DNA from: Phytoactinopolyspora mesophila
Lineage (GTDB): Bacteria; Actinomycetota; Actinomycetes; Jiangellales; Jiangellaceae
Direction: 5' to 3'
NCBI RefSeq assembly: GCF_010122465.1
Contig: NZ_WLZY01000008.1
Coordinates: forward strand, 62,001 to 126,000
DNA length: 64,000 nucleotides
The notes under the pieces are model-generated. The model was not told the origin of the DNA. It worked only from the letters and a program-made list of their open reading frames with translations, and searched no databases. The position numbers were made by a program, and so were the translations under genes. Within the stretch, counting starts at the first letter, position 1; each line of letters begins with the position of its first letter. This document shows, piece after piece, positions 29,286-63,326 of this stretch.

Positions 29286-29412
29286 CCCGTGATCGTGAGC
29301 GGATCCGCGCTATTCACCCCCGTGATCGTGAGCGGTTCACCGTCGCTATAGCAGCGTCATTGCGCTCACGATCACCGCGCGGCGGGGCAGAATTCTGCTC
29401 ACGATCACGGGG
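29286..29412. repeat. R1 palindromic element, nested four-unit copy
   Basis: Four units of the GTGATCGTGAG core occur in order forward, forward, reverse, reverse. The outer pair (29286-29300 with 29397-29411) matches over 15 bp and the inner pair (29322-29334 with 29363-29375) over 13 bp. It starts on the base after the lactonase stop and ends 33 bp before the stop of the convergent GntR gene. At 127 bp it is one unit longer than the other copies. Confidence 0.8.
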
Positions 29413-29444
29413 AAGGCGCCGGGGGATAAGGTGCCGCCGGTGCA

Positions 29445-30116
29445 CTAGAGCGCGTGCCGGAGCCAGTGTTCGACGCCGGACACGTGCACCGTCATCCACG
29501 ACCTGGCCAGCTCCGGCTGCCGGTTGGCCAGCGCGTCGTAGACGGCGCGATGCTCCTCCCAGGTGCGTTGCCAGGCGTCGCCCTCGGTCAGCCCCCGCCA
29601 TACCCGGGCCCGCTGGGTCGGCGCGGACAGGCTGTCGACCAGCGAGCTCAGGACCAGGTTGCCGGAGGCCTCGGCCACCACCCGGTGGAACTCCAGATCA
29701 TTGGCGATGAGGTGGTCCACCGGTGGGTTGGCACCGATCTCGTCGAGCAATTTCTGCAGCTTCCGTAGTTCGTCGTCGCTGATCCGGACGGCCGCCATCG
29801 CCGCCGCGGCAGGCTCCATGATCCGCCGCACCTCGAAGAACTGCAGCACGGAGTCGTCGCCGTGCAGATCGATGACGAAGTTCATGGCCTCCAGCAGAAG
29901 AGACGACTCCAGGCTGGTCACATAGGTGCCGTCGCCCTGCCGGACGTCGAGGATGTTGATCAGCGACAGCGCTCGCACGGCTTCGCGCAGGGAGTTCCTG
30001 GCCAGGCCCAGGCGGGCCGCTAGATCGGCTTCCCGAGGCAACCGGTCGCCCGGGCGGAGTTCGCCACTGACGATCATCTCTTTGATCTTGAGAATCGCCT
30101 CGTCCGTGACGGCCAT
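29445..30116 (-). CDS. GntR family (FadR/FCD) regulator, probable repressor of L-fucose genes
   Basis: This 223-residue regulator has an N-terminal winged helix (ILKIKEMIVSGELRPGDRLPREADLAARLGLARNSLREAVRALSLINILDVRQGDGTYV). The all-helical FCD domain (about 80-215) has the metal-binding pattern Asp in NDLEFHRVVAEAS and His in the later EEHRAVYDAL and HVSGVEHWL. FCD regulators commonly sense sugar acids. It lies convergent to the fucose operon, and similar 11-bp motifs occur before that operon, before this gene and before the sugar ABC genes. Confidence 0.87.
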   Translation of the reverse strand: MAVTDEAILKIKEMIVSGELRPGDRLPREADLAARLGLARNSLREAVRALSLINILDVRQGDGTYVTSLESSLLLEAMNFVIDLHGDDSVLQFFEVRRIMEPAAAAMAAVRISDDELRKLQKLLDEIGANPPVDHLIANDLEFHRVVAEASGNLVLSSLVDSLSAPTQRARVWRGLTEGDAWQRTWEEHRAVYDALANRQPELARSWMTVHVSGVEHWLRHAL

Positions 30117-30134
30117 CGCGCCTGCCTTCCCCAG

Positions 30135-30183
30135 AGATCGGACGTATTCTCGGCCTCAGTATGCCACCAGGGTCGTCCGATGA
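30135..30183 (-). promoter_or_regulatory. candidate autoregulatory sites of the GntR regulator
   Basis: AGATCGGACGT (30135-30145) matches the fucose operator consensus ACATCSGATGT at 9 of 11 positions. TCGTCCGATGA (30173-30183) matches at 8 of 11. They lie just upstream of the GntR start, centres 38 bp apart. Weaker than the sites at 25.7 kb. Confidence 0.4.
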
Positions 30184-30229
30184 CTCTTCCGGAACAAACC
30201 TCCGGCCGTGTCGGCCGACGTCGGGCACC

Positions 30230-31189
30230 TCAGGTGCCGGCCAGGCACTCCACCACCGGTGCGAAACGTTCGATGATCGCATCCGGCACGATGTAATAAG
30301 AGAACCCGAACTGCTCCCGCCGGGCACGCATCACCTCCGCGATGCGCTCCACAGGTCCGAGGAACGCCGCCGGCATGTCGAGCACCTGGTCGGCCGGCAA
30401 CCGCGCCCAGTCCCGGCCGCTCGTGTATCGCGCGACCGCCGCGCGCACATCGTCGTCGATCACCGGTGAGATCACCATCGACAACTCGACGTCACCCATC
30501 CGGGGCCCAGCTCCTTCCCGGATCCATTCGATCTTCTGCTTCATCGCCTCCGGCGTACGTTCGGAGAGAGCGTCGGAGATGGCGCCCTCGGGCAGCGCCT
30601 TGGGTAACACCCCGACGATGTCGGCTTCCCTTCCGGCCAGCCGCAACATGCGCTTGCTACCCGCACCGACCTGGATAGGTGGATGCGGACGCTGCGACGC
30701 GGCCGGGAAGGTGCTCAGCGACCTGATCGAGTAATGCTCGCCATCGAAGGTCACCTTCTCACCGGCCAGGAGACCTTTGAGGATCACGAGCGACTCCTCG
30801 AGCCGGTCCACCCTCAAACGGGCCAAGTCGAACGGCATTCCCGCGCTTTCGTACTCGTCGCGCAGCCAGCCTGCCCCCAGGCCCATCTCGAAGCGACCGC
30901 CCGAGAGCACGTCGAGAGTCGCGGCCTCTTTGGCGAGCATCACCGGGTGGCGATAGTCGTTGGCCAGTACGACAGTGCCGACGCGCAGAGTGGTGGTGGA
31001 CCCGGCTACGGCCGCCAGCGCGACCAGGGGGGCCAGCTGATCGCCGAACGGCTCCCGCACGAAGTGATCACGCAGCAGGAACGTACTGTAGCCGAGCCGT
31101 TCGGCCTGCCGAGCCGTATGCGCAAGTGATTCAGGCGAGCGAACCTGCTCGCCGAGAACACCGAAGCGGAAGGGGAATGTCGTGGTCAT
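30230..31189 (-). CDS. LLM class F420-dependent oxidoreductase (TIGR03621-like)
   Basis: This is a 319-residue luciferase-like TIM barrel. FRFGVLGEQVRSPESLAHTARQAERLGYSTFLLRDHF opens the fold; TTLRVGTVVLANDYRHPVMLAKEAATLDVLSGGRFEMGLGAGWLRDEYESAGMPFD and PPIQVGAGSKRMLRLAGREADIVGVLP are conserved in mycobacterial and actinobacterial F420 enzymes. No substrate can be given. Its close position to the fucose regulator looks incidental. Confidence 0.86.
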   Translation of the reverse strand: MTTTFPFRFGVLGEQVRSPESLAHTARQAERLGYSTFLLRDHFVREPFGDQLAPLVALAAVAGSTTTLRVGTVVLANDYRHPVMLAKEAATLDVLSGGRFEMGLGAGWLRDEYESAGMPFDLARLRVDRLEESLVILKGLLAGEKVTFDGEHYSIRSLSTFPAASQRPHPPIQVGAGSKRMLRLAGREADIVGVLPKALPEGAISDALSERTPEAMKQKIEWIREGAGPRMGDVELSMVISPVIDDDVRAAVARYTSGRDWARLPADQVLDMPAAFLGPVERIAEVMRARREQFGFSYYIVPDAIIERFAPVVECLAGT

Positions 31190-31297
31190 GACGCGACGCT
31201 AACGCTGCACGGCATGGCAAAACCGGCGGATTCCGGACGCGGCGTCCTCGCCCGCTCATGATCATGAACACTGCTGGACCTCTGTGGTCAAGTCTTC

Positions 31298-32044
31298 ATG
31301 ACCATGGGATTGAATGGGGGCATGAAGCATGCCGGCATCCTGGCGCACAGCGCCGAAGGCGCAGCCCTGTGTTTCCGTACGTTCTGCCAGCATGGCTTCG
31401 ACGAACTCGGTGAACACCAGCATCCCGACGTGACGCTCGATTGCATCGCCATGGCGCGGAGCATGCCGGCCTGGGACTCCGGCGACCACCAGAGCATTCG
31501 AACCACCCTCGCGACCTCGGTCAGCCGCCTGGCAGCGGCCGGAGCCGACTTCTTCGCCTGTCCGGACAACACCGCTCATCTGGCCCTCGAAGCATCGGGC
31601 CCGGAGCTCGCGCTACCCGGCCTGCATATCTCTCGTGTGGTGGCCGAGCAAGCCGCCCAGCAGGGTTTTACCCGCGTCGGGGTGCTCGGCACGTCGTACA
31701 CGATGGAGGGACCCATCTACCCCCGGGAACTCGCCGCGTGCGGCATCGAAGCCGAGATCCCCAACCCGGACGAGCGTCGGATGATCAATACGATTATCTT
31801 CGACCAGCTGGTCAACGGTGTCTTCACCGACGCCTCGCGGCAGGACTACCTGCGCGTGATCGACCGCCTCCGCGGCGTCGGCTGTGACGCCGTCGCCCTG
31901 GTGTGTACCGAGATCCCATTGCTCGTCACCCCAGAGGTGTCCCCGTTGCCCACCCTGGATTCGACCCGGTTGCTCGCACGGGCGGCGTTCGAGGTCGCCG
32001 CCGGACGCCGCCCGCTGCCATCGTGGCGTGGCGGTCGAGCCTAG
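31298..32044 (+). CDS. aspartate/glutamate racemase family protein
   Basis: This 248-residue cofactor-independent racemase-fold protein has both catalytic cysteines in context: FFACPDNTAHLAL (about residue 90) and AVALVCTEIPLLV (about 205). The segment FTRVGVLGTSYTMEGPIYPREL begins the second pseudosymmetric domain. It could racemise aspartate, glutamate or a related compound. The start is unsure: ATG 31298 gives MTMGLNGGMKHAGIL, while ATG 31322 gives MKHAGIL; neither has a well-spaced ribosome-binding site. No neighbour clarifies its role. Confidence 0.83.
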   Translation: MTMGLNGGMKHAGILAHSAEGAALCFRTFCQHGFDELGEHQHPDVTLDCIAMARSMPAWDSGDHQSIRTTLATSVSRLAAAGADFFACPDNTAHLALEASGPELALPGLHISRVVAEQAAQQGFTRVGVLGTSYTMEGPIYPRELAACGIEAEIPNPDERRMINTIIFDQLVNGVFTDASRQDYLRVIDRLRGVGCDAVALVCTEIPLLVTPEVSPLPTLDSTRLLARAAFEVAAGRRPLPSWRGGRA

Positions 32045-32239
32045 GGACCACAGCGGCATTGGCATAACAGCCGCATCAAGACCTCATAACGGTCCTTACG
32101 TCCGACCTATCGCCGACTTCGGCCAACATCGCACAAACCCACCCTTGACGTCGGCGTCTGCCTTGGCGCGGCGAGAATCGCCGACCACCTGCCCCACCTG
32201 CGGGCAGACCAGCCAGAGAAGTTGATCGAGGGCAGGGCA
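32045..32239. other. upstream part of a 308-bp gap before the sugar ABC operon, no gene seen
   Basis: There is only a short CTGCCC/GGGCAG hairpin (about 32190-32208) and no convincing frame. The regulatory signals of the sugar ABC operon follow at 32240-32283. Confidence 0.4.
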
Positions 32240-32283
32240 TTGACATCGGAGTTAACACAGTTACCATCGAATTCATCCGATCT
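32240..32283 (+). promoter_or_regulatory. promoter with fucose-type operator motifs before the sugar ABC operon
   Basis: TTGACA (32240-32245) and TACCAT (32262-32267) are 16 bp apart. ACATCGGAGTT (32243-32253) overlaps the -35, and TCATCCGATCT (32273-32283) lies downstream of the -10. Compared with ACATCSGATGT they match at 9 of 11 positions each. This would place the transporter under the same GntR as the fucose operon. Confidence 0.45.
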
Positions 32284-32352
32284 CTCGCCGTAGCTGTATC
32301 ACCTACTCTTCGGCGCTGTCTCACCTCCGCACCACCTGACATCTGGAGGACC

Positions 32353-33873
32353 GTGAACCACCGGCTACTCGAACTCGAGGGAATCAGCAAGAGCTTCCCG
32401 GGCGTGCAAGCCCTCTCCGATGTCCGTCTAGAACTGGCCGCCGGTGAGGTCCACGCGCTCGTCGGCGAGAACGGCGCCGGCAAGTCCAGCCTGATGAAGG
32501 TGCTGACCGGCATCTACCAGAAGGACGCGGGCACGATCCGTCTCGACGGGCAGCCAGTGAACATCGACAATCCCCTCGCCGCTCAGGCCCTCGGCATCAG
32601 CATCATCCACCAGGAGCTTTCGCTGATGCCGGACCTCAGTATCGCGGAGAACATCTTCATCACCCGGGAAAAGCGTCGAGGTCTCGGCTTCTTCGTCGAC
32701 GACCGCGACCTCAACCGGCGCGCCCGTGAGCTGTTCGATCACCTCGGCATCTCTCTCGATCCCCGGACCAAGGCCGGCAACCTCCTGGTCGCCCAACAGC
32801 AGGTGGTCGAGATCGCCAAGGCGTTGTCGTTCGACGCCCGCGTGCTGGTCATGGACGAGCCGACGGCAGCACTCACCGAGTCCGAAACCGAGATCTTGTT
32901 CCGGTTGATCCGCGACCTGCGCAGCCGCGGAACCGGCATCATCTACATTTCCCACCGGCTGGAAGAGCTCAAGATCATCTCCGACCGGATCACCGTCATG
33001 CGCGACGGCGAGTACGTCGACACCGTGCTGACAGAGACCGTGGAACTGCCACAGATCATCTCGATGATGGTCGGACGGCAGATCAAGGGTGAGTCGCGCC
33101 CGGTTGACATTCCGGCGCCCGGCCCGACGGTATTGGAAGTCGCTGGTCTTTCGACGAAGCCCTTGCTCCGGGACGTCAGTTTCGAGCTGCGCCAGGGCGA
33201 GATCCTCGGCTTCGCCGGGCTGATGGGCGCCGGGCGCACCGAAGTGGCCCGGGCCGTCTGCGGTGCGGACAAGATCGACAGCGGCGACATCTTCTTACAC
33301 GGCCAGCCAGTCAAGATCAAGAGCCCGGCCGACGCCGCACGGCTGCGAATCGGCTACCTGTCCGAGGACCGCAAGCGATTCGGCCTGATGCTCGACCAAG
33401 ACGTCAACTTCAACATTTCGATCTCGTCGCTAGGGAATCACGCCAACCCTCTCGGTTTCATCCGTGACGACCAAGCACGTCAGACGTCTCGGTCGTACGT
33501 CGAGTCGATGCGGATCAAAACCCCGTCGATCCAGCAACGCACCAAGAACCTCTCCGGAGGCAACCAGCAGAAGGTGGTCATCGCCAAATGGCTGGCCAAG
33601 GACTGCGACGTGCTGATCTTCGACGAACCCACCCGTGGCATCGACGTCGGCGCCAAGGAAGAGATCTACGAACTGCTCAACGCGCTGGCCGCACAGGGCA
33701 AGTCCATCATCATGATCTCCTCCGAGCTGCCGGAAGTGCTGCGTTTGTCACACCGGATCGTCGTGATGTGTGAAGGGCGCGTTACCGGGATTCTCGACAA
33801 CGCCGACGCCGACCAGGAAGTCCTCATGGACTACGCCACCCGCTCCGGAGCGCATGGAGGAATCGCTGCATGA
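32353..33873 (+). CDS. sugar ABC transporter ATP-binding protein (RbsA type, two NBDs)
   Basis: This 506-residue tandem ATPase has an intact first domain: Walker A GENGAGKSS (about 39-47), VAQQQVVEIAKALS as the signature region, and Walker B VLVMDEPTAAL. In the second domain Walker A is degenerate (GLMGAGRTE), with signature LSGGNQQKVVIAKWL and Walker B VLIFDEPTRGID. Such proteins drive uptake of ribose, xylose, fucose or rhamnose-type monosaccharides. The GTG at 32353 follows GGAGG. The next gene starts by ATGA overlap. Operator similarity makes L-fucose the leading candidate substrate. Confidence 0.93.
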   Translation: MNHRLLELEGISKSFPGVQALSDVRLELAAGEVHALVGENGAGKSSLMKVLTGIYQKDAGTIRLDGQPVNIDNPLAAQALGISIIHQELSLMPDLSIAENIFITREKRRGLGFFVDDRDLNRRARELFDHLGISLDPRTKAGNLLVAQQQVVEIAKALSFDARVLVMDEPTAALTESETEILFRLIRDLRSRGTGIIYISHRLEELKIISDRITVMRDGEYVDTVLTETVELPQIISMMVGRQIKGESRPVDIPAPGPTVLEVAGLSTKPLLRDVSFELRQGEILGFAGLMGAGRTEVARAVCGADKIDSGDIFLHGQPVKIKSPADAARLRIGYLSEDRKRFGLMLDQDVNFNISISSLGNHANPLGFIRDDQARQTSRSYVESMRIKTPSIQQRTKNLSGGNQQKVVIAKWLAKDCDVLIFDEPTRGIDVGAKEEIYELLNALAAQGKSIIMISSELPEVLRLSHRIVVMCEGRVTGILDNADADQEVLMDYATRSGAHGGIAA

Positions 33874-34901
33874 ACGAGGTCAAGACCGCCGACCAGCCGA
33901 CGGATGACTCCGCCGTGCCGGCGAGCACCCCCGCCGGCCGCACGGCTCGCGGCATCGTGCGCCAGCAACTGCAGCAGATCCTGGCCTTCGCCAGCCTGAT
34001 CGTGCTGGTCGCCTTCTTCGCGCTGGCCAACGACAACTTCCTCACCTGGTCCAACGTCACCGGCATTCTGGTGTCGACGGCCGTCATCGGGATCCTCGCG
34101 CTCGGGACCACCTACGTCATCATCACCGGCGGCATCGAACTGTCGCTGGGCACCGGGATGACGCTGGCGGCGGTCATGACCGGCGTCTTCCTGGTCAACC
34201 TCGGCTGGCCGCTGTACCTGGGCGTGCTGGGCGGCGTGCTGACCGGTGCGCTGATCGGGCTGGTCAACGGCTTCAACATCGCGTTCCTGAAGATCCCTCC
34301 GTTCATCGCGACGTTGGCGATGATGATGATCGCCCAGGGACTGGCGTTGGTCATCTCGGGCACGGCACCCATCTACTTCACCGACGTCTCCGGGTTCACC
34401 GGCATCTCCCAGGGCTCGGCCATACCCGGCGTCGACATCCCCAACGCGGTCCTGATCCTGTTCTCCGCGACGATCGTGGCCGCCCTGATACTCGGCAAGT
34501 CGATTCTCGGCCGTTTCACCTTCGCCATCGGCAGCAACGAGGAAGCCGCCGTGCTCTCCGGCATCAACGTCCGGAAATGGAAGATCATCATCTACACGCT
34601 CTCCGGTGCCTTCATGGGAATCGCCGGAGTGGTTCTCGCGGCCCGGCTGAACTCCGCGCAGCCTGCGATCGGCGTCGGTTACGAACTGCAGGCTATCGCC
34701 GCCGTCGTCATCGGTGGCACATCGTTGCAAGGCGGCAAGGGCAGCATCGTCGGCACGCTGATCGGAGCACTGATCGTCGGCACCGTCACCAACGGGCTGC
34801 GCATCATGTCCATTCCCCAGGAATGGCAGACCGTCATCATCGGCCTGGTCATCCTCCTCGCTGTCTATACCGACATCCTTCGCCGCGGCAAACAGGGATA
34901 G
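33870..34901 (+). CDS. sugar ABC transporter permease (RbsC type)
   Basis: This 343-residue permease has about eight to ten hydrophobic segments. The BPD_transp_2 pattern is visible: LALGTTYVIITGGIELSLGTGMTLAAVM (about 70-97), LVNGFNIAFLKIPPFIATLAMMMIAQG, FTFAIGSNEEAAVLSGINVRKWKIIIYTLSGAFMGIAGVVLAARL, and GGTSLQGGKGSIVGTLIGALIVGTVTNGL. Translation is coupled to the ATPase by a 4-nt overlap. It is the membrane channel of the monosaccharide importer. Confidence 0.93.
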   Translation: MNEVKTADQPTDDSAVPASTPAGRTARGIVRQQLQQILAFASLIVLVAFFALANDNFLTWSNVTGILVSTAVIGILALGTTYVIITGGIELSLGTGMTLAAVMTGVFLVNLGWPLYLGVLGGVLTGALIGLVNGFNIAFLKIPPFIATLAMMMIAQGLALVISGTAPIYFTDVSGFTGISQGSAIPGVDIPNAVLILFSATIVAALILGKSILGRFTFAIGSNEEAAVLSGINVRKWKIIIYTLSGAFMGIAGVVLAARLNSAQPAIGVGYELQAIAAVVIGGTSLQGGKGSIVGTLIGALIVGTVTNGLRIMSIPQEWQTVIIGLVILLAVYTDILRRGKQG

Positions 34902-34962
34902 CCCTCGCCTCTACTAGTCGCCCCCATCCCCATCAGCTCTTCACACCGATTCGGAGATCATC

Positions 34963-35958: not shown

Positions 35959-35965
35959 CCCCACC

Positions 35966-36057
35966 CCGGTGATCGTCAGTACGCTGTGGTCGCGATCTGA
36001 TGATCGTCAGTGGGTTGTGGTTGCTGCTTAGCAGCCACAACCCACTGACGATCACCG
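35966..36057. repeat. R1 palindromic element, 92 bp
   Basis: There are two forward units (TGATCG cores at 35970 and 36001, 31 bp apart) and one reverse unit. The second forward arm (36001-36020) pairs perfectly with 36035-36054 over 20 bp, and CTGC/GCAG extends the loop stem. It sits between two convergent genes, and its reverse core supplies the stop codon of the DUF2344 gene. Confidence 0.85.
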
Positions 36058-36816
36058 ACGTTGGGGTGGGTTTGACAACGTCAGGGGGATGAGCTCGCGG
36101 CGCTGTTCGTCCCAGGTCCCCTGAGCCAGGCGCCGCGCGCGGGGCGGTGACGGGGGTGTGAAACCGGCCGCCACCCGCAGGCCAGCGAGGACCTCCTCCG
36201 GACGGACCGTCGGCGTTTGGTGTTCGATGACGCAGCGAATGGCCGGCTCGGATGTGTCGTGGCTCTCGTCGGCTTCGGCGAAGAGTACTGCTCCGCGGGC
36301 GTCTATCTTGCGGTTGCCCTTCTTGGTGAGACGTTCGACTTCGACGGACTCAGCGCCCAGGAAGGTGGCCAGCGCCGATCGGATCTCGTCGGGTGCCGCA
36401 CCGGGACAGGCGATTTCCCATAGTGATGCCCGCAGGCGGTCAGCGAGCGAGCCGGGCTCCGCGGGATCGACTTCGCCGACCTCGATGATGTCGAGGCCGG
36501 GCGGCAGTGCCTCGTCGAGGGATAGGCGGATCTGATCCGGATCGCGCCGATCCGTGAGAGAGATCTCGAGATACTCCGCCTCGCTTGCGGCGCCGGTGGG
36601 TGCGGCGCCGGCAAACGAGATCTTCGGATGTGGCGTGAACCCGTAGGAGAAGGCCATAGGCACCTGGGCGCGGCGCAGGGCACGTTCGAACGCACGCTGG
36701 AAGTCACGATGGCTGGTGAACCGGAGACGGCCGCGTTTGGCGAACCGAACACGCATCTTCTGCACCGCGGGTTGCTGGTCGCGCTCCGGCGCCGCCCGAT
36801 GGGACTGTGGACTCAC
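36052..36816 (-). CDS. TIGR03936 family (DUF2344) radical-SAM-associated protein
   Basis: This 254-residue protein has the family core MRVRFAKRGRLRFTSHRDFQRAFERALRRAQVPMAFSYGFTPHPKISFAGAAPTGAASEAEYLEISL (about residues 21-88). It is usually encoded next to, or fused with, a radical-SAM protein and just before ribonuclease E/G and rplU. Here neither partner is visible: rplU lies 10.6 kb away. The function is undefined. The stop codon TGA is formed by the GGTGATCG end of the adjacent R1 element, so the C-terminus may have been reset by the insertion. Confidence 0.87.
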   Translation of the reverse strand: MSPQSHRAAPERDQQPAVQKMRVRFAKRGRLRFTSHRDFQRAFERALRRAQVPMAFSYGFTPHPKISFAGAAPTGAASEAEYLEISLTDRRDPDQIRLSLDEALPPGLDIIEVGEVDPAEPGSLADRLRASLWEIACPGAAPDEIRSALATFLGAESVEVERLTKKGNRKIDARGAVLFAEADESHDTSEPAIRCVIEHQTPTVRPEEVLAGLRVAAGFTPPSPPRARRLAQGTWDEQRRELIPLTLSNPPQRR

Positions 36817-36873
36817 CTGGCTAGCCTATCCAGGCTGGCCGGCGTGCTCGCTCTGCCGGCTCCGCCCTCCCGA

Positions 36874-46365: not shown

Positions 46366-46421
46366 TCTTGGACGAAATGGATCACTGCAGAGATGCTGCC
46401 GGCAGCTCAGGACTGACCCGC

Positions 46422-46469
46422 TTGCGTCCTGCAGGGCGAGCGCCCAAGGCCTCGTCTTGCAGGACGCTA
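46422..46469. repeat. 48-bp palindromic repeat, family R2 copy 2
   Basis: TTGCGTCCTGC starts it and GCAGGACGCTA ends it; the exact arms are GCGTCCTGCA (46424-46433) and TGCAGGACGC (46458-46467). Length, both ends and the internal GCGAGCG match the copy at 16967-17014, while the centre differs. Here it stands free in a 300-bp intergenic gap upstream of the DasR-type promoter. Apart from these features the gap shows nothing else. Confidence 0.7.
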
Positions 46470-46563
46470 GCGCAGAGTCCGGGGCACCGCAGCCACGCTG
46501 CCGACCTTGCTGCGACAGCATTGCTGCTTGGTAACAGTTTCGACAATGCGCCCGGATGGTCCC

Positions 46564-50468: not shown

Positions 50469-51626
50469 GTGCCACTCGCCACCCGTCCAACTACTCACGA
50501 CGCGCCCGGCGCGGCCGGTGCCACCGCTGTGCGTATCCGCGGCCTGACCGTCGTCTACAAGACACCCGCCGGTGAACTGCCGGCGGTGCGCGACATCGAT
50601 ATGGACCTCGCGCCGGGAACCATCACCGGCCTCGTCGGTGAATCCGGATCCGGGAAATCCACCCTCGCGCTTTCCCTGCTCAATGCCGTCCAGCCCCCCG
50701 GGCGGATCAGCGCCGGCCAGATAGAGATCGACGGGATCGGCGACGTCGTCAAGCTGCGCGGGGACAAACTCCGGCAGGTGCGCGGCGGCCAGATCGGCTA
50801 CGTCTTCCAAGCCGCCCAGAACTCGCTCAACCCGCTCAAGACGATCGGCAAGCAACTCCTCGACCTCGGCCGCTCACACGATGTGGACAACCTGCGCGCA
50901 TTGGTCGCCGAGGCCAAGGAGCTGCTCGGCCGGATGGGGCTCGACGGTGCCCGGGTCCTCGACTCGTACCAGCACGAGCTCTCCGGTGGTATGCGCCAGC
51001 GCGTCGGCATCATGTTCGCGCTGGTCTTGAACGCTCATCTCGTGGTCCTCGACGAGCCCACAACTGCCCTTGACGTCATCACTCAGGCGAACATCCTCGA
51101 GATCGTCCGCGACATCCATGCCGAACGTAACCTCACCACCTTGGTCATCACCCACGACATCGGCGTGGTCGCCGAGGTAGCCGACCGGCTCGCTGTCATG
51201 TACGGCGGCCAGCTGGTCGAGCAGGGCCCGGTCCGCGACGTCCTCGGCGAACCACAGCACCCCTACACCCGTGGCCTCATCCAGGCGATTCCACGGCTCA
51301 CCGGAGACATCTCCGAGGCTCACGCGCTGCCGGGCCGACCACCGAACCTCTCGACGATCCCCACCGAGGGCTGTGTCTTCCGGGAGCGGTGCCCGCTGCG
51401 CATGGACATCTGTGAGACCGTCGAGCCGCCGCTGGTGAGCGGTTCCGGCCGGCTCGTCGCCTGCCACGCTGTTGCGGACACCCCCGCCAAAGGCACGAAG
51501 GCGACAACAGGCGTCTCGGGGGGATTGACGTCGTCCAGGGTTCGGTCGGGCATCGGCGAGGAACGAGCCGCGGGCGGGGACGACGTCAATCCCCCGGAGA
51601 CGCCAACGGAAGAGGAGCAGTCGTGA
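50469..51626 (+). CDS. oligopeptide-type ABC ATPase (DppD/OppD), 3' end extended by a palindromic element
   Basis: This is a 385-residue ATPase with Walker A GESGSGKST (about 58-66), signature HELSGGMRQRVGIMFAL, Walker B LVVLDEPTTALDV and the OppD/F C-terminal domain with cysteines in GCVFRERCPLRMDIC and ACHAVAD. The regular fold ends near residue 340. The last 40 residues (GVSGGLTSSRVRSGIGEERAAGGDDVNPPE...) are low-complexity and encoded mostly by a 95-bp inverted repeat at 51510-51604, read in frame. The gene ends by GTGA overlap with the next ATPase. Confidence 0.9.
   Translation: MPLATRPTTHDAPGAAGATAVRIRGLTVVYKTPAGELPAVRDIDMDLAPGTITGLVGESGSGKSTLALSLLNAVQPPGRISAGQIEIDGIGDVVKLRGDKLRQVRGGQIGYVFQAAQNSLNPLKTIGKQLLDLGRSHDVDNLRALVAEAKELLGRMGLDGARVLDSYQHELSGGMRQRVGIMFALVLNAHLVVLDEPTTALDVITQANILEIVRDIHAERNLTTLVITHDIGVVAEVADRLAVMYGGQLVEQGPVRDVLGEPQHPYTRGLIQAIPRLTGDISEAHALPGRPPNLSTIPTEGCVFRERCPLRMDICETVEPPLVSGSGRLVACHAVADTPAKGTKATTGVSGGLTSSRVRSGIGEERAAGGDDVNPPETPTEEEQS
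51510..51604. repeat. 95-bp palindromic element inside the DppD-type gene
   Basis: The 27-bp terminal arms (51510-51536 and 51578-51604) are complementary at 26 of 27 positions and begin GGCGTCTC and end GAGACGCC. The 41-bp centre is not symmetric. It encodes about 31 of the last 40 residues of the ATPase without breaking the frame. No second copy is in the window. No clear target duplication is visible at its ends. Confidence 0.75.
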
Positions 51627-55313: not shown

Positions 55314-55406
55314 CGGGTGATCGTGAGCGGATTTTTGCTGCTGTGAGGGTGATCGTCAGCGCATTGTCGTGGTGGACGGCAGCAAAAATCCGCTCACGAT
55401 CACCCG
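55314..55406. repeat. R1 palindromic element, 93 bp
   Basis: The outer arms (55314-55341 and 55379-55406) are perfectly complementary over 28 bp. A second forward core (TGATCG at 55350) lies in the loop, 32 bp after the first. It lies between two minus-strand genes, upstream of the cupredoxin gene and 14 bp downstream of the DUF-like gene stop. Confidence 0.85.
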
Positions 55407-55420: not shown

Positions 55421-55837
55421 TTATTCGTCGGGGGGGAGGTCACGCTCGCTCGCCAGGTCGGCGCGCAATGCCGCCGTGGCGCTCAGCACGCGTTCGTGTT
55501 CGGCCGTGAAGGGCTGGTATTCGGCCGGAACGTCTCCACGCCCATACAGCGGGCGTACCTCGGCGGCGAGGTCATGTAAGGCCGCGCGGTCGAACCCCTC
55601 ATGGGCCAGGCGGCTTGCTTCGTTGGCCGCGAACCTGAGGTCCTCGACCCGGCCGCGCCATCCCGGGTTGGTCATCCGGGACTCGACCTCCGCCATCGCA
55701 CGTGCCAGTGTGCGCAACGCGTCTTCGAGTTCGTCGAGCTGAGCTCGTCGCGCATCGGTATCCAGCGGAATCACCGGCGGCGTGTCCACACCCTCGTCGC
55801 GGCTGAACAGTTCCTTGACTCGGTCGATCAATCCCAT
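55421..55837 (-). CDS. hypothetical helical protein
   Basis: This is a 138-residue, largely helical, acidic protein: MGLIDRVKELFSRDEGVDTPP at the start, a long helix DARRAQLDELEDALRTLARAMAEVESRM (about 27-54), GWRGRVEDLRFAANEASRLAHEGFDRAALHDLAAEVRPLYGRG, and a final helix EHERVLSATAALRADLASERDLPP. A coiled-coil-like two-helix arrangement is likely. No signal peptide or catalytic motif is seen, and no family is recognised. Good codon bias supports it as a real gene. Confidence 0.75.
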   Translation of the reverse strand: MGLIDRVKELFSRDEGVDTPPVIPLDTDARRAQLDELEDALRTLARAMAEVESRMTNPGWRGRVEDLRFAANEASRLAHEGFDRAALHDLAAEVRPLYGRGDVPAEYQPFTAEHERVLSATAALRADLASERDLPPDE

Positions 55838-56024
55838 TGGCTACGGACCTCCTCCTCCGTACCCTAGCCGCCTTCCACACCGACGACGACGCGGCTTCAC
55901 CGGGCGCCCCGGCCGGCATCGCTCACTGAATTCCCGGTCCTGACATATCGTCCGAACGGCTGACCCTTATCCTGAACGAATAGAGGAGAGACATTTCCCG
56001 AATCAACCGCGTCAGGAGCGCCCC

Positions 56025-56672: not shown

Positions 56673-59539
56673 GCGACGGCAGCGGCCTCGCCGCGGGTCG
56701 AAACTCCCAGCTTGGCAAGGATGTTCGAGACGTGCACGCTGGCCGTCTTGGCGCTGATGAACAACGCCTCACCGATTTCGCGGTTGCTGCGCCCGGCCGC
56801 GATCAGGTCTAGGACCTCGCGCTCACGCGCCGTCAACCCGGCCGGCCCTCCGGCTGCTTCCCCCGCGGCACTTTCCGGCGTCATTGTGAGCCGCTCACTG
56901 CGGGTCAGGTCATCGATCTGCTGTACGACGTGGCCGGCCCCGAGCTGACGAGCCCCGTCGAGGGCATGGCTCAGCGCTTCGACAGCGCCGTGTCGCTCTC
57001 CGGAACCAAGCAGGGCCCATCCGAGGCGGTACTGCGCATACGGCACGAGGTAGACCGGGCCTTCGGCCGCGCTGAGCGCTTCGATCGCATGCCTCCACGC
57101 GGCTACGTCGGGTCCAGCCAACTCGGCCTCGGTGAGGACCTGCCACACATTGCCTGGCCAGGATGCCGATATCTGCGCAGTTCCCGTGCGTATCCACTGC
57201 ATGTCCGCAGCCGTCGACTCCGCTGTCACCGCGCCGGTTCGGATCAGAGCAGCCAGTGCACGTGCGGCGGTAAAGAACAGCGGAAGCTCGTGTCCCGGAA
57301 CCGGCACATGGTTGGCATCTCGAAGCTCGGTGACCACCATGTCCCAAGCCTTGGCGAACTGATGCCGAGCCAGTGCGAGCTCAGCGGTGACCCGGAGGTG
57401 GTCCATCTGCAGCTGCGGAAACAGCACCCGCCGCGAAGCACGGTCGTTTGCCTCGGCCAGGACACGCTCGCCGGTGTCGTAGTCGCCACGCCACAGCGCA
57501 TGCCACGCGTTGAACAGGAGTAGCTGAATGTAGTGCTGTCCGGGCGGGTGGTGGGCAAGGCCCTGGTGGACGAGCTGCTCGGCGCTCTCCCACTCACCGA
57601 GTTCGAACAGTGGCTCGACGGCATTGCCCACCAGCATGGACCCGAAGGTGCGCTTGCGGCCGATGGCTTCGGCGCGCTCCTGGCCCTTCTTGGCCGTCTG
57701 TACAGCCTCGCGGAAACGGCCCGCGTGGCCCAGAACGTGCGACAAGTTGATGTAGTAACGCAGGAGCGTCATCGGCTCGTCGTCGATCAGTTCGCGGGCC
57801 CGCTCGAACTCCGCCAGCGCTTCCTCCGTGCGTCCCTGATCGGCCCAGGCCGTTCCGCGGGTGATGCGGGCGGCGGCGATCAGCTGCCGCACACCGGCCG
57901 CGTTCGCTGCCTCTTCGGCTTCGTCGGCGGCCCGCAGCGCCTCATCCAGACGCCATTCCAGCATCAAGATACCGGCCAGCCATCCCAGGACCTCCGCACG
58001 TTCCGCCGATGGCGGCTCCGCCGGAATGAGTTCACACGCGCGGACCAGCGTCGCCACGGGGTCGGCGCGGCCGCTTCTGCCTTTCATCTTCCCGAGCTGA
58101 CTGAGTAAGACACCAACCCGCCTCGGCTCGGCTGCCTCGTCCACGTGGTCCAGCGCAGCCTCCAGCAACGCGATAGCTCGTTCGCGTTCGCCGGCCGCGT
58201 ATGCCTCTTCCGCGGCTCTGGCCAGCAGGTCTCCGCGCCCGCCTCCCGAGACCTCGGCGGGATCGGCTACCCGGTCCCACAACTCCAGCGCACGTTCGAG
58301 CATCACCTGCGCGGTGGCATGTGCATAACTGCCGACAAGCTCCGCCGCCGCGTTCAAGCACCAGCGGAAGGCCCGCTCGACATCGTGCGCGAAATACCAG
58401 TGATGGGCGATGGCGGTAGCCGCCTGACCGTCCGAAGCCAAATGCGGCTGTTTCTCCAGCGTCCGCGCGTAGGCGGCGTGAACACGGGCGTTCTCGCCCG
58501 GCAGCATGTCGCCGTGCAGGGCCTCGTGCAGCAATGCGTGCCGGAACCGGTAACCGTCTCCGTCGACGACGATCACCCCCATGGACACGGCTTCGCGCAG
58601 CGCCGAATCCAGCACCGCGACGTCGTAACCCGCCACGGGCTCGAGTACCGCGTGGTCGACCCGATGCCCACCGAGCGCCATCACCCGCAGGAGCCGCTGT
58701 GTCTGCTCGGACAAGGGCGCGATCCGGACCATGAGCAGCTCACGTAACGACTCGGGCAGCGCCACAGGCCCGGCATCATCGGCTGCGTGAGCCAGCTCCT
58801 CGACGTAGAAGGGCACTCCTTCGGTGCGCTCGAAGACCCGCTCCGCCTGGTCAGGCGCGATCTCGCGGTCGAGCACCGCTGACAGCTGGGCCGCTACCTC
58901 GTCACGGCCCAACCGGGCGAGATCCACCCGGCCGACCCGGCGGATGCGCTCCAGATCGGCCAGCAAGGCCCGGACCGGGTGCCCGCGGCCGAGCTCGTCG
59001 TCACGACAGGTCAGCAGCAACATCACCGGAGCGGCGATCAGGCTGCGGATCATGAACCGGAGAAGATCCCGGGTGGGGCCGTCGGCCCACTGCAGGTCCT
59101 CGATCACGACGACGAGCGCGTCCTCGGCCGCCACCCGCTCGAGCAACGACGTGACGACCTCGTAGAGCCGGCCTCTTCCCGCTGTGCCGTCTCCCGCATT
59201 GTGGCCGAGCTCCGGCAATAGCGCACGCAGCGCCTGCCCGCCCGGCCCCGCGAGTTCGACCAGGCGTTCCGGGCCGAACTCGGGCATCAGCGCACGCAGG
59301 ATCCCCACGATGGGCGCGAACGCCAGCTCTTCTCCGTCCATGTCGACGGACTGGCCCCGAAGTACCCGCGCGCCGGCGGCCCCCACTTCGAGGGCGAACT
59401 CCTCAACCAGGCGCGTTTTGCCGATCCCTGCTTCACCAGCGATCAGCACCGCCGCCGGCTCACCCGCCTGGACACTCTTGAACACCTCACGCAGGTCTTC
59501 CAGCTCACGCTCGCGCCCGATCAATGCCGGACTTCCCAT
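56645..59539 (-). CDS. LAL-type (large ATP-binding) LuxR family regulator
   Basis: This is a 964-residue regulator. The AAA-like ATPase part begins LIGRERELEDLREVFKSVQAGEPAAVLIAGEAGIGKTRLVEEFA (Walker A near residue 33) with Walker B VVVIEDLQWADGPTRDLLRF. A long TPR-like helical middle (about 350-880) follows. The C-terminal LuxR helix-turn-helix is LTAREREVLDLIAAGRSNREIGEALFISAKTASVHVSNILAKLGVSTRGEA. LAL proteins respond to small ligands and often activate catabolic or secondary-metabolite genes. ATG 59539 begins the conserved ATPase; the longer frame upstream overlaps another small gene and is not supported. The target is unknown. Confidence 0.9.
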   Translation of the reverse strand: MGSPALIGRERELEDLREVFKSVQAGEPAAVLIAGEAGIGKTRLVEEFALEVGAAGARVLRGQSVDMDGEELAFAPIVGILRALMPEFGPERLVELAGPGGQALRALLPELGHNAGDGTAGRGRLYEVVTSLLERVAAEDALVVVIEDLQWADGPTRDLLRFMIRSLIAAPVMLLLTCRDDELGRGHPVRALLADLERIRRVGRVDLARLGRDEVAAQLSAVLDREIAPDQAERVFERTEGVPFYVEELAHAADDAGPVALPESLRELLMVRIAPLSEQTQRLLRVMALGGHRVDHAVLEPVAGYDVAVLDSALREAVSMGVIVVDGDGYRFRHALLHEALHGDMLPGENARVHAAYARTLEKQPHLASDGQAATAIAHHWYFAHDVERAFRWCLNAAAELVGSYAHATAQVMLERALELWDRVADPAEVSGGGRGDLLARAAEEAYAAGERERAIALLEAALDHVDEAAEPRRVGVLLSQLGKMKGRSGRADPVATLVRACELIPAEPPSAERAEVLGWLAGILMLEWRLDEALRAADEAEEAANAAGVRQLIAAARITRGTAWADQGRTEEALAEFERARELIDDEPMTLLRYYINLSHVLGHAGRFREAVQTAKKGQERAEAIGRKRTFGSMLVGNAVEPLFELGEWESAEQLVHQGLAHHPPGQHYIQLLLFNAWHALWRGDYDTGERVLAEANDRASRRVLFPQLQMDHLRVTAELALARHQFAKAWDMVVTELRDANHVPVPGHELPLFFTAARALAALIRTGAVTAESTAADMQWIRTGTAQISASWPGNVWQVLTEAELAGPDVAAWRHAIEALSAAEGPVYLVPYAQYRLGWALLGSGERHGAVEALSHALDGARQLGAGHVVQQIDDLTRSERLTMTPESAAGEAAGGPAGLTAREREVLDLIAAGRSNREIGEALFISAKTASVHVSNILAKLGVSTRGEAAAVAYRAGWIGR

Positions 59540-59604
59540 GTTCAGGACCACACCCCCATCGTGCCACCCGGCGCCGACAGATAAGCCCACGCGAGCAGCG
59601 TGGC

Positions 59605-59823
59605 TCAGACTCCGATGCCCGGCCTCGAGCACAGGGCGCCCGCGACACCCTCTGAAGCGACGCCCCGCCGAGGCAGGGCAGGCTTCGCGGCTGCATAGCG
59701 CCCGCCCCGCCTCCGGATCCGCCACCGGCGCTTGACCAGACGGTGTTCCTCCGCGTCCTTGCGCAGGCTCCTGGACCGGTCTTCGTAGATCGCCCGTGCG
59801 GCGTCCTCGTTGTAGATATACAT
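59605..59823 (-). CDS. small basic protein (MYIYNED...), upstream of the LAL gene
   Basis: This is a 72-residue frame starting at ATG 59823 with GGGAGA 8 nt upstream. The acidic helix YNEDAARAIYEDRSRSLRKDAEEHR is followed by a strongly basic stretch LVKRRWRIRRRGGR. Short proteins of this layout are common in actinomycetes and have no known role; nucleic-acid contact is possible from charge alone. A 5' hairpin and a dyad lie upstream. It is on the same strand as the LAL gene, 65 bp before its start. Confidence 0.55.
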   Translation of the reverse strand: MYIYNEDAARAIYEDRSRSLRKDAEEHRLVKRRWRIRRRGGRYAAAKPALPRRGVASEGVAGALCSRPGIGV

Positions 59824-59882
59824 CTGCTGTTCTCCCGCCGACTCTTCTGCTGTTGATATCGAGAGTCGCGGTAAGAACCCCC

Positions 59883-59966
59883 GGGGCGCATGGGGAGTGC
59901 GCCCCATCTTTGGTGTGGGCGCCTACCTTAGACACCCCCAACACCACCTGAGGCCCCGTCTAAGGT
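59883..59966 (-). promoter_or_regulatory. hairpin and dyad upstream of the small basic protein gene
   Basis: GGGGCGCA/TGCGCCCC (59883-59890 with 59898-59905) can form a leader hairpin. ACCTTAGAC (59925-59933) and its complement (59958-59966) form a 42-bp spaced dyad that could be an operator. The rest of the 350-bp gap up to the ABC ATPase gene is filled by an R1 element, with no further gene seen. Confidence 0.4.
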
Positions 59967-59989
59967 CCTTACTACCGAGGGCTACGCCC

Positions 59990-60084
59990 ATCGGTGATCG
60001 TGAGCGGTTTCTGGTTGTTCCCGCACCACGAAACCCCAGGTGAGCGTCATCTCCAACAACCAGAAACCGCTCACGATCACCGAT
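59990..60084. repeat. R1 palindromic element, 95 bp
   Basis: The arms 59990-60019 and 60055-60084 are perfectly complementary over 30 bp. The outer core is GGTGATCGTGAGCGGTTT; the inner part of the arms is unlike the other copies. The loop holds GGTGAGCGTCAT (about 60039), perhaps a decayed forward unit. It lies between divergent genes. Confidence 0.85.
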
Positions 60085-60175
60085 TAAGGGGAACGCCGTG
60101 TCCACCGACTGGTGGACCCGAGGTTCAGCCTGCCGATGCTGCCGGCAGAACCCCCACCGGCGGCACGCTGGAGGC

Positions 60176-61063
60176 ATGGTTACGACGAATCCGGCCGTGA
60201 CGGTGCGCGGGCTCAGCAAGGGTTACAGCGGCACCCGTGCCGTCGACGGCATCGATCTGGACATCGAGCAGGGCGAGGTCTTCGCGCTGCTGGGGCCGAA
60301 CGGTGCGGGCAAGACGACCACCGTCGAGATCCTCGAGGGATACCGAAAGCGCGACGCCGGCGAGGTCACGGTCCTCGGGCAGGATCCCGGGCGCCCGGGC
60401 CAGGACTGGCGTTCCCGGATCGGCATCGTGTTGCAGAACACCGGTGGCCACGACGACCTCACGGTGCACGAGGTCGTCCACCACTTCTCCGGCTACTACC
60501 CGAATGCCCGGGAGCCCGAGGACGTCATCGCCGCGGTCGGCCTGGACGACAAACACAAGACCCGGGTGCGGCATCTCTCCGGTGGACAGCGACGGCGCCT
60601 CGACGTGGCGCTCGGTATCCTCGGCCGGCCCGAACTGCTCTTCCTCGACGAGCCGACCACCGGTTTCGACCCGGAAGCCCGGCGCGAGTTCTGGGGGCTG
60701 GTCTCCTCCCTCGCCGACGACGGCACCACAATCCTGTTGACCACCCACTATCTCGACGAGGCCGAGCACCTCGCCGGCCGGGTCGGGATCATCGCCGGCG
60801 GACGGATCGTCGCGCTGGACACCCCGGCCGAACTCGGGGGACGGGCAGATGAGCAAGCGACCGTTCGCTGGATGACACCCGACGGCCCGCGTGAAGAAGC
60901 CTCAGCTGAACCGACCCAGCTGATCACCGAGCTCAGCAGCCGCTTCGGCGGCGAAGTCCCCGGGCTGACGGTGTCGCGCCCGACGCTGGAAGACGTCTAT
61001 CTCCGGCTGATCGGCGAATCCGCCGACGCGTCCCGGCCCTCCGAGAACCTGGAGCACGCATGA
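60176..61063 (+). CDS. ABC exporter ATP-binding protein (DrrA/CcmA type)
   Basis: This is a 295-residue ATPase with Walker A LLGPNGAGKTTTVEILEGYRKRDAG (about 36-60), Q-loop VLQNTGGHDDLTVHEVVHHF, signature HLSGGQRRRLDVALGIL, Walker B LLFLDEPTTGFDPEARREFW and TTHYLDEAEHLAGRVGII. It is the first gene of an ABC-permease-kinase-regulator cluster. The GGAGG lies very close to ATG 60176, so the exact start is uncertain. The stop overlaps the permease start by 4 nt. Confidence 0.9.
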   Translation: MVTTNPAVTVRGLSKGYSGTRAVDGIDLDIEQGEVFALLGPNGAGKTTTVEILEGYRKRDAGEVTVLGQDPGRPGQDWRSRIGIVLQNTGGHDDLTVHEVVHHFSGYYPNAREPEDVIAAVGLDDKHKTRVRHLSGGQRRRLDVALGILGRPELLFLDEPTTGFDPEARREFWGLVSSLADDGTTILLTTHYLDEAEHLAGRVGIIAGGRIVALDTPAELGGRADEQATVRWMTPDGPREEASAEPTQLITELSSRFGGEVPGLTVSRPTLEDVYLRLIGESADASRPSENLEHA

Positions 61064-61923
61064 CCACCCAGACATCCACAAGATCCACGGAACGATCCGC
61101 GGCCGCCGCGCGGCCGTCCGCGGTCCGGATCGGGCTGTCGCGCACCGTGCTGGAGCTGAAGGTCTTCTTCCGCGAGAGCGCGGCCGTGTTCTTCACGTTC
61201 CTGCTGCCCATCGTGCTACTCGGTGTGTTCGCTCTGGTCTTCGGTGGCGACGACCAGCTCTTCGACGAAGAAACCGCCGGGGTCGACTTCGCCACCTACT
61301 TCACTCCGGGCATGGCCGCCGCCGGAATCTTCCTGGTGAGCTTCCAGACCCTGGCCGTCGGCATCGCGGCCGAGCGCGACGATCGCACACTCAAACGGCT
61401 TCGTGGTACGCCGATGCCGCCGATGGCCTACTTCCTCGGCAAGATCGGCATGGTCCTCGTCACCGCAGCGCTGCAAATGGTGCTACTCCTAGCCGTCGCC
61501 GTCATTGCCTTCGGCGCGGAACTGCCGACGGACGCGTCGAAATGGCTGACCTTTGCCTGGGTGTTCCTGCTCGGCACCGCTTCGGGCACGGTCCTGGGTA
61601 TCGCCTACTCGTCGGTGCCGAAATCCGCCAAGAGCGCCGAGGCGCTCGTCGTCGGTCCGACCCTGCTTCTGCTGTTCATCTCCGGCGTGTTCTTCGTCTT
61701 CAGCGATCTCCCGGAGTGGCTGCAGACGATCGCGTCGGTCTTCCCGGTGAAGTGGATGGCTCAGGGTATGCGATCGGCTTTGTTGCCCGACGAGTTCGAA
61801 GCTGTGGAAGTATCGGGGTCGTGGGAGCACGGCACGATCATCCTGATCCTGAGCGCGTGGATCGTCTTCGGACTGATCTTCGCAGCGCGGACGTTCCGGT
61901 GGAAGCGCCGGGACGACGGGTGA
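61060..61923 (+). CDS. ABC-2 type exporter permease
   Basis: This 287-residue membrane protein has a cytoplasmic N-tail, then TM1 ESAAVFFTFLLPIVLLGVFALVFGG, an extracytoplasmic acidic loop and five further helices, including GMVLVTAALQMVLLLAVAVIAFG and ALVVGPTLLLLFISGVFFVFSDLPEWLQTIASVFPVKWMAQGMRSALLP. It is translationally coupled both upstream (ATGA) and downstream (GTGA). It probably exports a drug, lantibiotic or lipid sensed by the kinase. Confidence 0.9.
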   Translation: MTTQTSTRSTERSAAAARPSAVRIGLSRTVLELKVFFRESAAVFFTFLLPIVLLGVFALVFGGDDQLFDEETAGVDFATYFTPGMAAAGIFLVSFQTLAVGIAAERDDRTLKRLRGTPMPPMAYFLGKIGMVLVTAALQMVLLLAVAVIAFGAELPTDASKWLTFAWVFLLGTASGTVLGIAYSSVPKSAKSAEALVVGPTLLLLFISGVFFVFSDLPEWLQTIASVFPVKWMAQGMRSALLPDEFEAVEVSGSWEHGTIILILSAWIVFGLIFAARTFRWKRRDDG

Positions 61924-63239
61924 GCGACGACGGCAGCCGCCGCTCCTTCTTCGCGGCGGCTGCCGACATCGCCACTCGAAGCGACAACACCCGGCCGGCC
62001 GGCAACGGGCCTGCACCGGGCAGCAGTATGGCCAAACTGGACGACTGGTGGGACCGGATCATCCCCATCTGGCACGTTCTGTATCTCGGCCTGCTGGTGC
62101 TCGGCGCTGTGTCGACCCTGTTCGTCGGTGGTGGTGTCGAAACGCGGCTCATCACTGTCGGGCTGTTGGCGGTGATGGGCGCGACCTACGCCGCCTTCGC
62201 CCGCAGACTGTTCGAACGCCCGGGTGGACTGCCCGCATTCACGTATCTCACGATCACCTGGCTGTGCTTGTATGCCATCTACATCGTGACCTCGGGCGAT
62301 ACCAGCGTGTTCTTCGTGCTGTTCGCACTGTTCCCCCAGATCTGGGCCTTCTTGAGTCCCCGTGCCGCAACCGTCACCTCTGTCGTGGTGATCCTCGGCC
62401 TCGCTCTGACGCAAGTGCATGTCGCCGGCTGGGGCTGGGAGTCGGCCGTGCGCCACGCGCCAGAGGCGATCATGCAGACCGGACTGGTCATGCTGGTGGG
62501 AATCCTCATGGTGGGGGTGGCCAACCAGGCCGAGCGGCGCGCCGAGCTGATCGACGAGCTCGAATCGACCCGTTCCGAGCTCGCCGAGACCGAGCGGGTC
62601 CGCGGAGTCCTCGCCGAACGTGAGCGGCTCGCCCATGAGATCCACGACACGCTTGCCCAGGGATTCATCAGCATTCTGACCCTCTCGCAGGCGATCGAAG
62701 CGTCGCTCGAGCGTGACGCGGGCCAGGTCCGCGATCGCCTGGCGCTGCTGGAACGGACTGCCCGCGAGAACCTGGCCGAGACCCGCGCTCTGGTCGACGC
62801 ACTGGCTCCGGTCGATCTGCAGGGCAGGTCGCTGGCCCAGGCGCTGACGACGGTGGCCAGGCGGTTCAGCACCGAAACCGGCGTGCGGGCCGACGCCGAC
62901 GTAGCGCCCGGCATGGTCACGCTGCCGGTCTTCGCCGAGATCGTGTTGCTCCGCACCGCCCAGGAAGCGCTGTCGAACATCCGCAAACATGCCGGCGCGT
63001 CTCAGGTACGGATCAGTTTGTCGGTTGTCGACGACGGCCTCGGGATGGCCACGATGACGGTCGCCGACGATGGCGTCGGGTTCGACACCACCCAGGATTC
63101 CGGCGGCTTCGGGCTCCGGGGCATGCGAACCCGTGCCCAACAGGCAGGTGGCGGCTTCGAGGTCTCCAGCACACCTGGCGGAGGCACAACGGTCCGCGTG
63201 CACGTCCCGATGAACCCCGGCGGCCCCACCCCCCGGTGA
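61920..63239 (+). CDS. sensor histidine kinase (HisKA_3, NarL-partner type)
   Basis: This 439-residue kinase has about five to six TM helices (residues 45-195, starting IIPIWHVLYLGLLVLGAVSTLFVGGG) and no extracytoplasmic domain. A coiled linker (about 200-235) and the HisKA_3 motif RERLAHEIHDTLAQGFISILTLSQAIE (phospho-His about residue 239) follow. The ATPase domain has EIVLLRTAQEALSNIRKHAGAS, VADDGVGFDTTQDSGGFGLRGMRTRAQQAGG and PGGGTTVRVHVP. The short membrane sensor suits kinases that listen to their ABC exporter. The GTG overlaps the permease stop. Its TGA lies in the end of an R1 element. Confidence 0.92.
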   Translation: MSDDGSRRSFFAAAADIATRSDNTRPAGNGPAPGSSMAKLDDWWDRIIPIWHVLYLGLLVLGAVSTLFVGGGVETRLITVGLLAVMGATYAAFARRLFERPGGLPAFTYLTITWLCLYAIYIVTSGDTSVFFVLFALFPQIWAFLSPRAATVTSVVVILGLALTQVHVAGWGWESAVRHAPEAIMQTGLVMLVGILMVGVANQAERRAELIDELESTRSELAETERVRGVLAERERLAHEIHDTLAQGFISILTLSQAIEASLERDAGQVRDRLALLERTARENLAETRALVDALAPVDLQGRSLAQALTTVARRFSTETGVRADADVAPGMVTLPVFAEIVLLRTAQEALSNIRKHAGASQVRISLSVVDDGLGMATMTVADDGVGFDTTQDSGGFGLRGMRTRAQQAGGGFEVSSTPGGGTTVRVHVPMNPGGPTPR

Positions 63240-63326
63240 TCGTCAGTGGGTTATGGCTGTTTTCCGGTGATCGTCAGTGGGTTGTGGTCGTGGTCTAGCA
63301 ACCACAACCCACTGACGATCACCGGA
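63233..63326. repeat. R1 palindromic element, 94 bp, between kinase and regulator genes
   Basis: There are two forward units (TGATCG at 63237 and 63268, 31 bp apart) and one reverse unit. The second arm (63263-63288) pairs perfectly with 63301-63326 over 26 bp around a 12-nt loop. The first unit overlaps the last codons of the kinase and provides its TGA. Confidence 0.85.

Follow-up and report, generated by a model that had tools for sequence, protein, structure and literature searches.

The window, a 64,000-nucleotide stretch of the genome of Phytoactinopolyspora mesophila (contig NZ_WLZY01000008.1, positions 62,001 to 126,000), carries several copies of an intergenic palindrome family, which we call R1. 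Its copies are dispersed within one bacterial lineage, have a modular structure, covary between their two arms, reassort arm classes with loops and show turnover at orthologous sites. The explanation that we favour, and to which we give close to an even chance of being correct, is that R1 is an old, diversified, non-coding and non-autonomous hairpin family, similar to REPINs (REP doublets forming hairpins) and to miniature inverted-repeat transposable elements (MITEs), which would have multiplied in this lineage through mobilisation in trans, its pairing being kept at the DNA level. A sequence-only reading of the window had described the palindromes and offered an interpretation: the observation as a whole is confirmed and the interpretation is partly supported, and three features had been missed, i.e., the fixed spacing of the heads, the existence, in this and sister genomes, of related families with the same TGATCR tip and the preference for the 3' ends of genes.

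Extent of the R1 Family

The coordinates, lengths and arms reported for the R1 palindromes of the window were verified, with the corrections given below. When up to three mismatches are allowed, the core pattern matches 41 times in the window, against 15.6 expected matches and a maximum of 27 in 100 shuffles, while the exact core (GTGATCGTSAGYG) has 220 matches across the whole 6.5 Mb genome and its reversed control has none, which bears out the claim of a dispersed family. A genome-wide search, as proposed by the sequence-only reading, recovered far more copies than those of the window: using a covariance model built from 48 copies, R1 was located at about 105 distinct places (from 149 strand matches) at the least, given that scoring was limited to 150 candidates. 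All five R1 palindromes of the window fold well as DNA (z-scores of -6.6 to -11.1 in 5/5), no shuffle being as good, and the aligned ends of the family read CGGTGATC in nearly all copies. Among 80 genomes, matches to the model are confined to the same bacterial family (Jiangellaceae).

The palindromes had not been recognised as a named family, and the Rfam search of the window likewise returned no R1 match, its sole hit being a tRNA. No actinobacterial repeat comparable to R1 emerged from the literature searched, and a plasmid collection searched for one copy of R1 and one copy of the related X family (see below) gave no match. The viral contigs searched yielded two single, chance-like matches without a palindrome and none for the R1 architecture. 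At one locus (L018:11928-12093), an assembly gap of N adjoining C-runs lies inside an R1 copy, which suggests that the hairpins break this assembly.

Modular Structure and Arm Classes

Copy-level statistics are based on 97 copies sampled from 1.65 Mb of fetched sequence of the same genome, which holds 172 of the 220 core matches. In this sequence, the cores (heads) form 133 clusters with fixed offsets. The outer heads are 73–75 apart in 97 of these clusters, 63 of which have a third head at 31–33 from one end, on either side. Twelve clusters comprise four heads, with offsets of about 0, 33, 74 and 105–107, and seven are simple hairpins with heads ~42 apart. Measured from tip to tip, the modules thus measure ~54, 87 and 120 bp, which are also the sizes seen in G003, a genome of the same bacterial family. 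As a remark only, the head spacings are close to whole helical turns.

The loops of two-head copies are related across the whole family, in either orientation, and related loops bear either of two arm classes (CAGT or GAGC), nearly always as a matched pair. Loop similarity and arm class are unlinked, since 8 of the 16 most similar loop pairs combine copies of different class, where independence would give 53%. It follows that the loop was retained while its two arms were jointly exchanged or rewritten. For example, the copies L018:6929 and L023:9450 have a common loop but different arm pairs. Moreover, a 120-bp copy (L122:6857) features a CAGT hairpin nested within GAGC outer arms, an arrangement implying that modules are exchanged or nested.

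Covariation of the Arms

With the outer stem as the structure, the covariation score reaches 0.233, whereas shuffling the partners gives 0.114 ± 0.008 and sliding them no more than 0.076. Within-copy agreements at arm positions 8–12 number 459 (382 ± 7 when permuted; 97 copies), whereas those at positions 13–22 number 832 out of 970 (695 ± 11, the maximum of 5000 permutations being 737). Because the covariation persists inside each class, with 642 vs. 588 ± 9 agreements in CAGT (62 copies) and 167 vs. 129 ± 6 in GAGC (17 copies), it does not merely reflect two subfamilies. The permutation and within-class tests hence uphold the claim that the arms covary between copies. In contrast, the claim that pairing is exact in every copy has to be given up, as the arms are perfect over positions 1–22 in 38 of the 97 copies and have at most two mismatches in 67, which amounts to a tendency only. 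The perfect 22-bp arms represent 23 different sequences, and a few copies join arms of different classes.

Palindromy also extends into the unconserved flank: positions -12 to -3 show 448 matches out of 970, against 388 ± 13 in permuted data, and 9 of the 97 copies have at least six further contiguous flank pairs (e.g., L035:6162, L006:9894, L023:10853 and L124:10374) where fewer than 0.5 are expected. This signal was weak on the first 48 copies and is clear on 97; a looser test with offsets agrees (score of at least 8 in 12 copies vs. 4.5). It would result either from R1 entering palindromes that were already present, at their centre, or from arm copying past the tip.

A second family, R3, behaves in the same way, and even more markedly. 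It has a conserved loop of 40–70 nt (GGTCGGGCATCGGCGAGCGAGG...GAGTCCGCGGGCGG) between arms of 20–30 bp that are copy-specific yet complementary, with 17.6 of 18 positions paired within copies and 9.7 between copies (22 copies). It amounts to about 22–32 copies in the fetched loci of this genome. That two unrelated families behave alike is the main reason for taking seriously a general DNA-level process of arm copying.

Related Families and Orthologous Sites

Hairpin families with a TGATCR tip and arms of their own occur in seven genomes of the same bacterial family (G001, G003, G004, G005, G009, G010 and G014), with examples in G003 (ATGATCATTGGCTTTTGACTACCGAA), G001 (ATGATCATGTGAAGTAGGTTTTCTCGTGC) and G004 (ATGATCATGTAAACCATGTTTTCTCGTGC). 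Those of the sister species have nothing but this tip and the module sizes in common with R1. The G001 arm has 169 matches in G001, in pairs 65 apart, 12 in G002 and none in P. mesophila, where a sister arm (ATGATCATGTTTGGTGGGTTT) nevertheless occurs, together with four or more other TGATC-tip families. Among 104 other palindromes scoring at least 18, 46 (including a few R1 variants) have TGATC near the outer end, compared to 5% of random 28-mers.

At orthologous intergenic sites, the hairpin is missing from the relative in 15 of 18 comparisons. An X-family copy is nonetheless shared at the same place by G001 and G002, where 1 of about 42 arm bases differs and the loop is ~69% identical. The R3 site of the window holds a decayed copy in G004 and none in G003.

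Search for a Mobilising Enzyme

A profile search for Y1/RAYT transposases (PF01797; RAYT, REP-associated tyrosine transposase) gave no match in the P. mesophila genome, in four congeners or in the other genomes of the same family that were scanned, while control genomes were positive. The suggested link to a RAYT is thus not borne out. Other transposases are sparse in this genome, with 4 DDE_Tnp_1, 1 IS110-type and 7 rve matches. Within the fetched 1.65 Mb, we found neither a transposase framed by R1 heads nor an autonomous element, and R1 does not correspond to the ends of any insertion sequence (IS) found there, an identity that the sequence-only reading had named as contrary to its own proposal. 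Apparent long-range head pairs were discarded as neighbouring or half copies, one of them (L039:5155-6897) spanning ordinary genes. In G001, two inverted X-family tips (517930/519185, in C1:517930-519201) lie 1,255 bp apart, which is an IS-sized candidate interval in which no DDE_Tnp_1, IS110-type or rve match was found.

In our favoured explanation, an enzyme acting in trans on the folded or cruciform hairpin with its TGATC tip would copy R1 to new sites, and the pairing would persist since mobilisation uses the hairpin as its substrate. Template switching during replication may also copy one arm onto the other and so help to sustain the pairing. The 3'-end preference would correspond to what selection tolerates, while the enzyme would not be a recognisable Y1/RAYT transposase. 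Several observations weigh against this scenario. First, the above searches recovered neither an enzyme that could mobilise R1 nor an autonomous copy. Second, no target-site duplication is readable at the hairpin-free orthologous sites, as intergenic DNA is too diverged for base-level alignment. Third, full R1 copies are at most 93% identical to their nearest neighbour (median 84%), which indicates that these copies are old and gives no sign of recent movement. Finally, the near-unchanged arms of the X-family copy shared by G001 and G002 look like functional constraint.

Is the Pairing Maintained at the DNA or the RNA Level?

The sequence-only reading had left the choice between selection for a hairpin and a copying mechanism that regenerates the arms. 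The evidence tilts towards a DNA-level process, owing to the paired switch of arm class around a retained loop, the flank palindromy and the lack of a G-U preference (see below). One such possibility, in our view unlikely, is that a host or element-borne DNA process of this bacterial family would actively rewrite one arm from the other, so that several unrelated families (R1, the other TGATC-tip families and R3) diversify yet stay paired, with palindromes growing outward.

A mainly mutational origin of the arm pairing is also rather unlikely. In that case, template switching during replication (quasipalindrome correction) would account for most of the arm pairing by copying arms, sometimes past the tip, whatever originally spread the family. 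In RNA genes, template switching is described as copying one arm from the other to produce multi-base compensatory changes (PMC8794818); R1 shows the same compensatory pattern but is a dispersed repeat family rather than an RNA gene. Flank pairing, the joint class changes of both arms around persisting loops, the within-copy pairing of the unrelated R3 and mismatches devoid of G-U preference all fit this mechanism. However, flank palindromes could also stem from elements inserting in the middle of palindromes that were already there, only 39% of the arms are perfect, and neither the dispersal nor the conserved heads are explained. With many copies ranging from perfect to broken arms and several families in one genome, this system lets selection be tested against template switching, the origin of compensatory change being a long-standing question on the evolution of paired stems.

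An element acting at the RNA level, in which the hairpin ends or protects transcripts at their 3' end and the fold is kept by selection, appears rather improbable, even though the genomic context is in its favour. According to our own codon-usage gene caller, which is approximate for starts and reliable for stops, none of the 97 copies lies inside a gene: 37 are in convergent, 49 in tandem and 11 in divergent gaps, whereas all gaps of at least 40 bp comprise 145 convergent, 568 tandem and 218 divergent ones. Convergent gaps therefore account for 38% of R1 copies and 16% of gaps overall. The median distance from R1 to the neighbouring stop is 23 bp, compared to 162 bp to the start, and the tip TGA doubles as a stop codon in 20 cases. 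R1 thus matters for annotation, since its tip gives stop codons to neighbouring genes. The conserved arms of the orthologous X-family copy also speak for an RNA element, as do three cases of different hairpin families at the same orthologous site. Yet this co-occupancy (3/18 vs. 2/75) is significant in a biased set (p = 0.048) and not in an unbiased one (p = 0.37), and we dropped the claim that hairpins replace one another. Furthermore, one-sided transitions in tandem contexts, read in transcript orientation, are 30 of G-U type and 37 of A-C type, hence without any sign of the better tolerance of G-U that RNA-level selection would predict. No U-tract was found after the hairpin, the sequence past the right arm being G-rich, and no R1 copy is among the terminator-like calls in the window between 46000 and 64000. 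Taken together, the lack of G-U preference and of a U-tract speaks against R1 acting as an RNA or as a terminator, to which can be added the 11 copies between divergent genes and the absence of an Rfam match.

Comparison with Known Repeat Systems

MITEs such as ERIC and Correia are palindromic intergenic elements of about 100–130 bp, the parent transposase of which is often missing. R1 is like them in size, palindromy and intergenic location, and no parent transposase was found for it in the sampled sequence; it differs in that its arms are free to vary between copies and in that no target duplication is readable. A classical MITE, whose heads would be the terminal inverted repeats (TIRs) of a DDE transposon that has since disappeared or escapes recognition, is nevertheless a doubtful explanation, with a low probability. 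It would be consistent with inverted heads in a non-coding, intergenic, high-copy element and with the IS-sized head pair of the related family in G001. On the other hand, fixed head spacing and covarying internal arms are needless for linear TIR recognition, no head pair at IS distance surrounds a transposase in the sampled sequence, and the G001 interval is without a match to the three transposase profiles.

In E. coli, bacterial interspersed mosaic elements (BIMEs) consist of repeat units whose orientation alternates, and most of them lie in intergenic regions on the 3' side of genes. R1 resembles them in its alternating units and 3' intergenic placement, but its units are not palindromes themselves, its arms are longer and its spacings are fixed. 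The CGTC-tagged repetitive extragenic palindromic sequences (REPs) are high-copy palindromes of 20–40 bp without a dedicated transposase (PMC3733652). R1 shares the high copy number, the palindromy and the lack of a dedicated transposase, but measures 54–127 bp and has the TGATCR tip.

REPINs, known from Pseudomonas fluorescens SBW25, are REP doublets forming hairpins (PMC3116915). Both REPINs and R1 have conserved inverted ends around a spacer that is free in sequence yet complementary, are extragenic, and number ~100 copies in several co-existing sequence groups. Unlike REPINs, R1 is devoid of a RAYT, ends in TGATCR instead of GTAG/CGTC, is made of 54/87/120 bp modules, and has strongly diverged copies and related families with different arms across the bacterial family. 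The REP-like organisation put forward from the sequence therefore holds for the inverted ends, the hairpin with compensatory changes and the high-copy extragenic distribution, but not for the RAYT and the GTAG/CGTC tag. As these are two defining traits of RAYT-REPs, R1 is filed as a REPIN/MITE-like variant rather than as a REP. Strict mobilisation by a RAYT, despite the shared layout, is very improbable and already contradicted by the lack of Y1_Tnp in the genome and four congeners and by R1 ends that carry neither tag, save for the case of a HUH enzyme of very divergent sequence. As REPIN-like repeats have so far been tied to RAYTs, a covarying high-copy hairpin repeat in an actinobacterial family without a detectable RAYT calls for another mobiliser.

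Copies in the Window

The window holds the following copies of R1 and R3 (ORF, open reading frame).

15218..15246, strand +: half copy of R1, with one head and a partial arm, no partner.
29286..29412, strand.: R1 with four heads (29288 +, 29321 +, 29362 -, 29395 -) and imperfect arms; it adjoins the stop codon of ORF 28440-29285, and its neighbours are convergent.
35966..36058, strand +: R1 with three heads (35968 +, 35999 +, 36042 -).
51510..51604, strand.: R3 hairpin, from a family separate from R1 with the same covariation; conserved loop, copy-specific arms.
55314..55406, strand +: R1 of the GAGC arm class, with a degenerate inner head at 55348; ORF 55421-55837 (-) has its stop 15 bp upstream of this copy.
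59990..60084, strand.: R1 with two heads and perfect 30 bp arms, between divergent genes.
63233..63326, strand +: R1 with three heads.

Five palindromes and a single unit at 15.2 kb had been announced: the places are right, but the 29.3 kb copy turns out to be four-headed with imperfect arms, and the single unit, which does belong to R1, is more precisely a half copy. At 35966..36058, the best partner of the right arm is the inner head, the left head having drifted by two mismatches, and the tip TGA supplies the stop of the minus-strand ORF 36052-36765. Similarly, ORF 61920-63239 terminates at the TGA of the left tip of R1 63233..63326. The R3 copy is situated, in frame, close to the 3' end of ORF 50529-51626.

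Other Inverted Repeats

In P. mesophila, the X family consists of 84-bp hairpins (CTA[AG]ATGATCATGTTTGGTGGGTTTYCTCGTGC) found at L039:5155, L016:3029, L152:10135, L146:17701 and other places. The eight bases past TGATCATGT vary by species (TTGGTGGG, GAAGTAGG, AAACCATG) and are matched on the opposite arm. Further TGATC-tip families of this genome are ATGATCATGAACACT (51 bp), TTGATCATGGGCAGATG (60 bp), TGATCATTGGC (52–54 bp) and TGATCATTGTCC (54 bp), at sites that include L023:3609, L033:10724, L124:2592 and L133:6032. Long inverted repeats whose ends are of the GCATCTGATCG type and whose interiors measure 60–550 bp (L045:306-644, L158:10747-11350 and, in G003, L068:9415-9532) may belong to the tip superfamily as larger members. 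Hairpins of 68–76 bp with ACTTCAATACCGCCAGGT arms were observed at L028:13383, L032:15663, L034:6712 and L118:14303, their G003 counterpart being CTTCGCTACCGCCAGATGG, with both arms changed. Finally, a dispersed inverted repeat (GCGTTGCGTCCTGCAG...) occurs in the window at 16967-17014 and 46419-46472 and at L038:7389-7440, and recurs many times in congeners, in either strand orientation.

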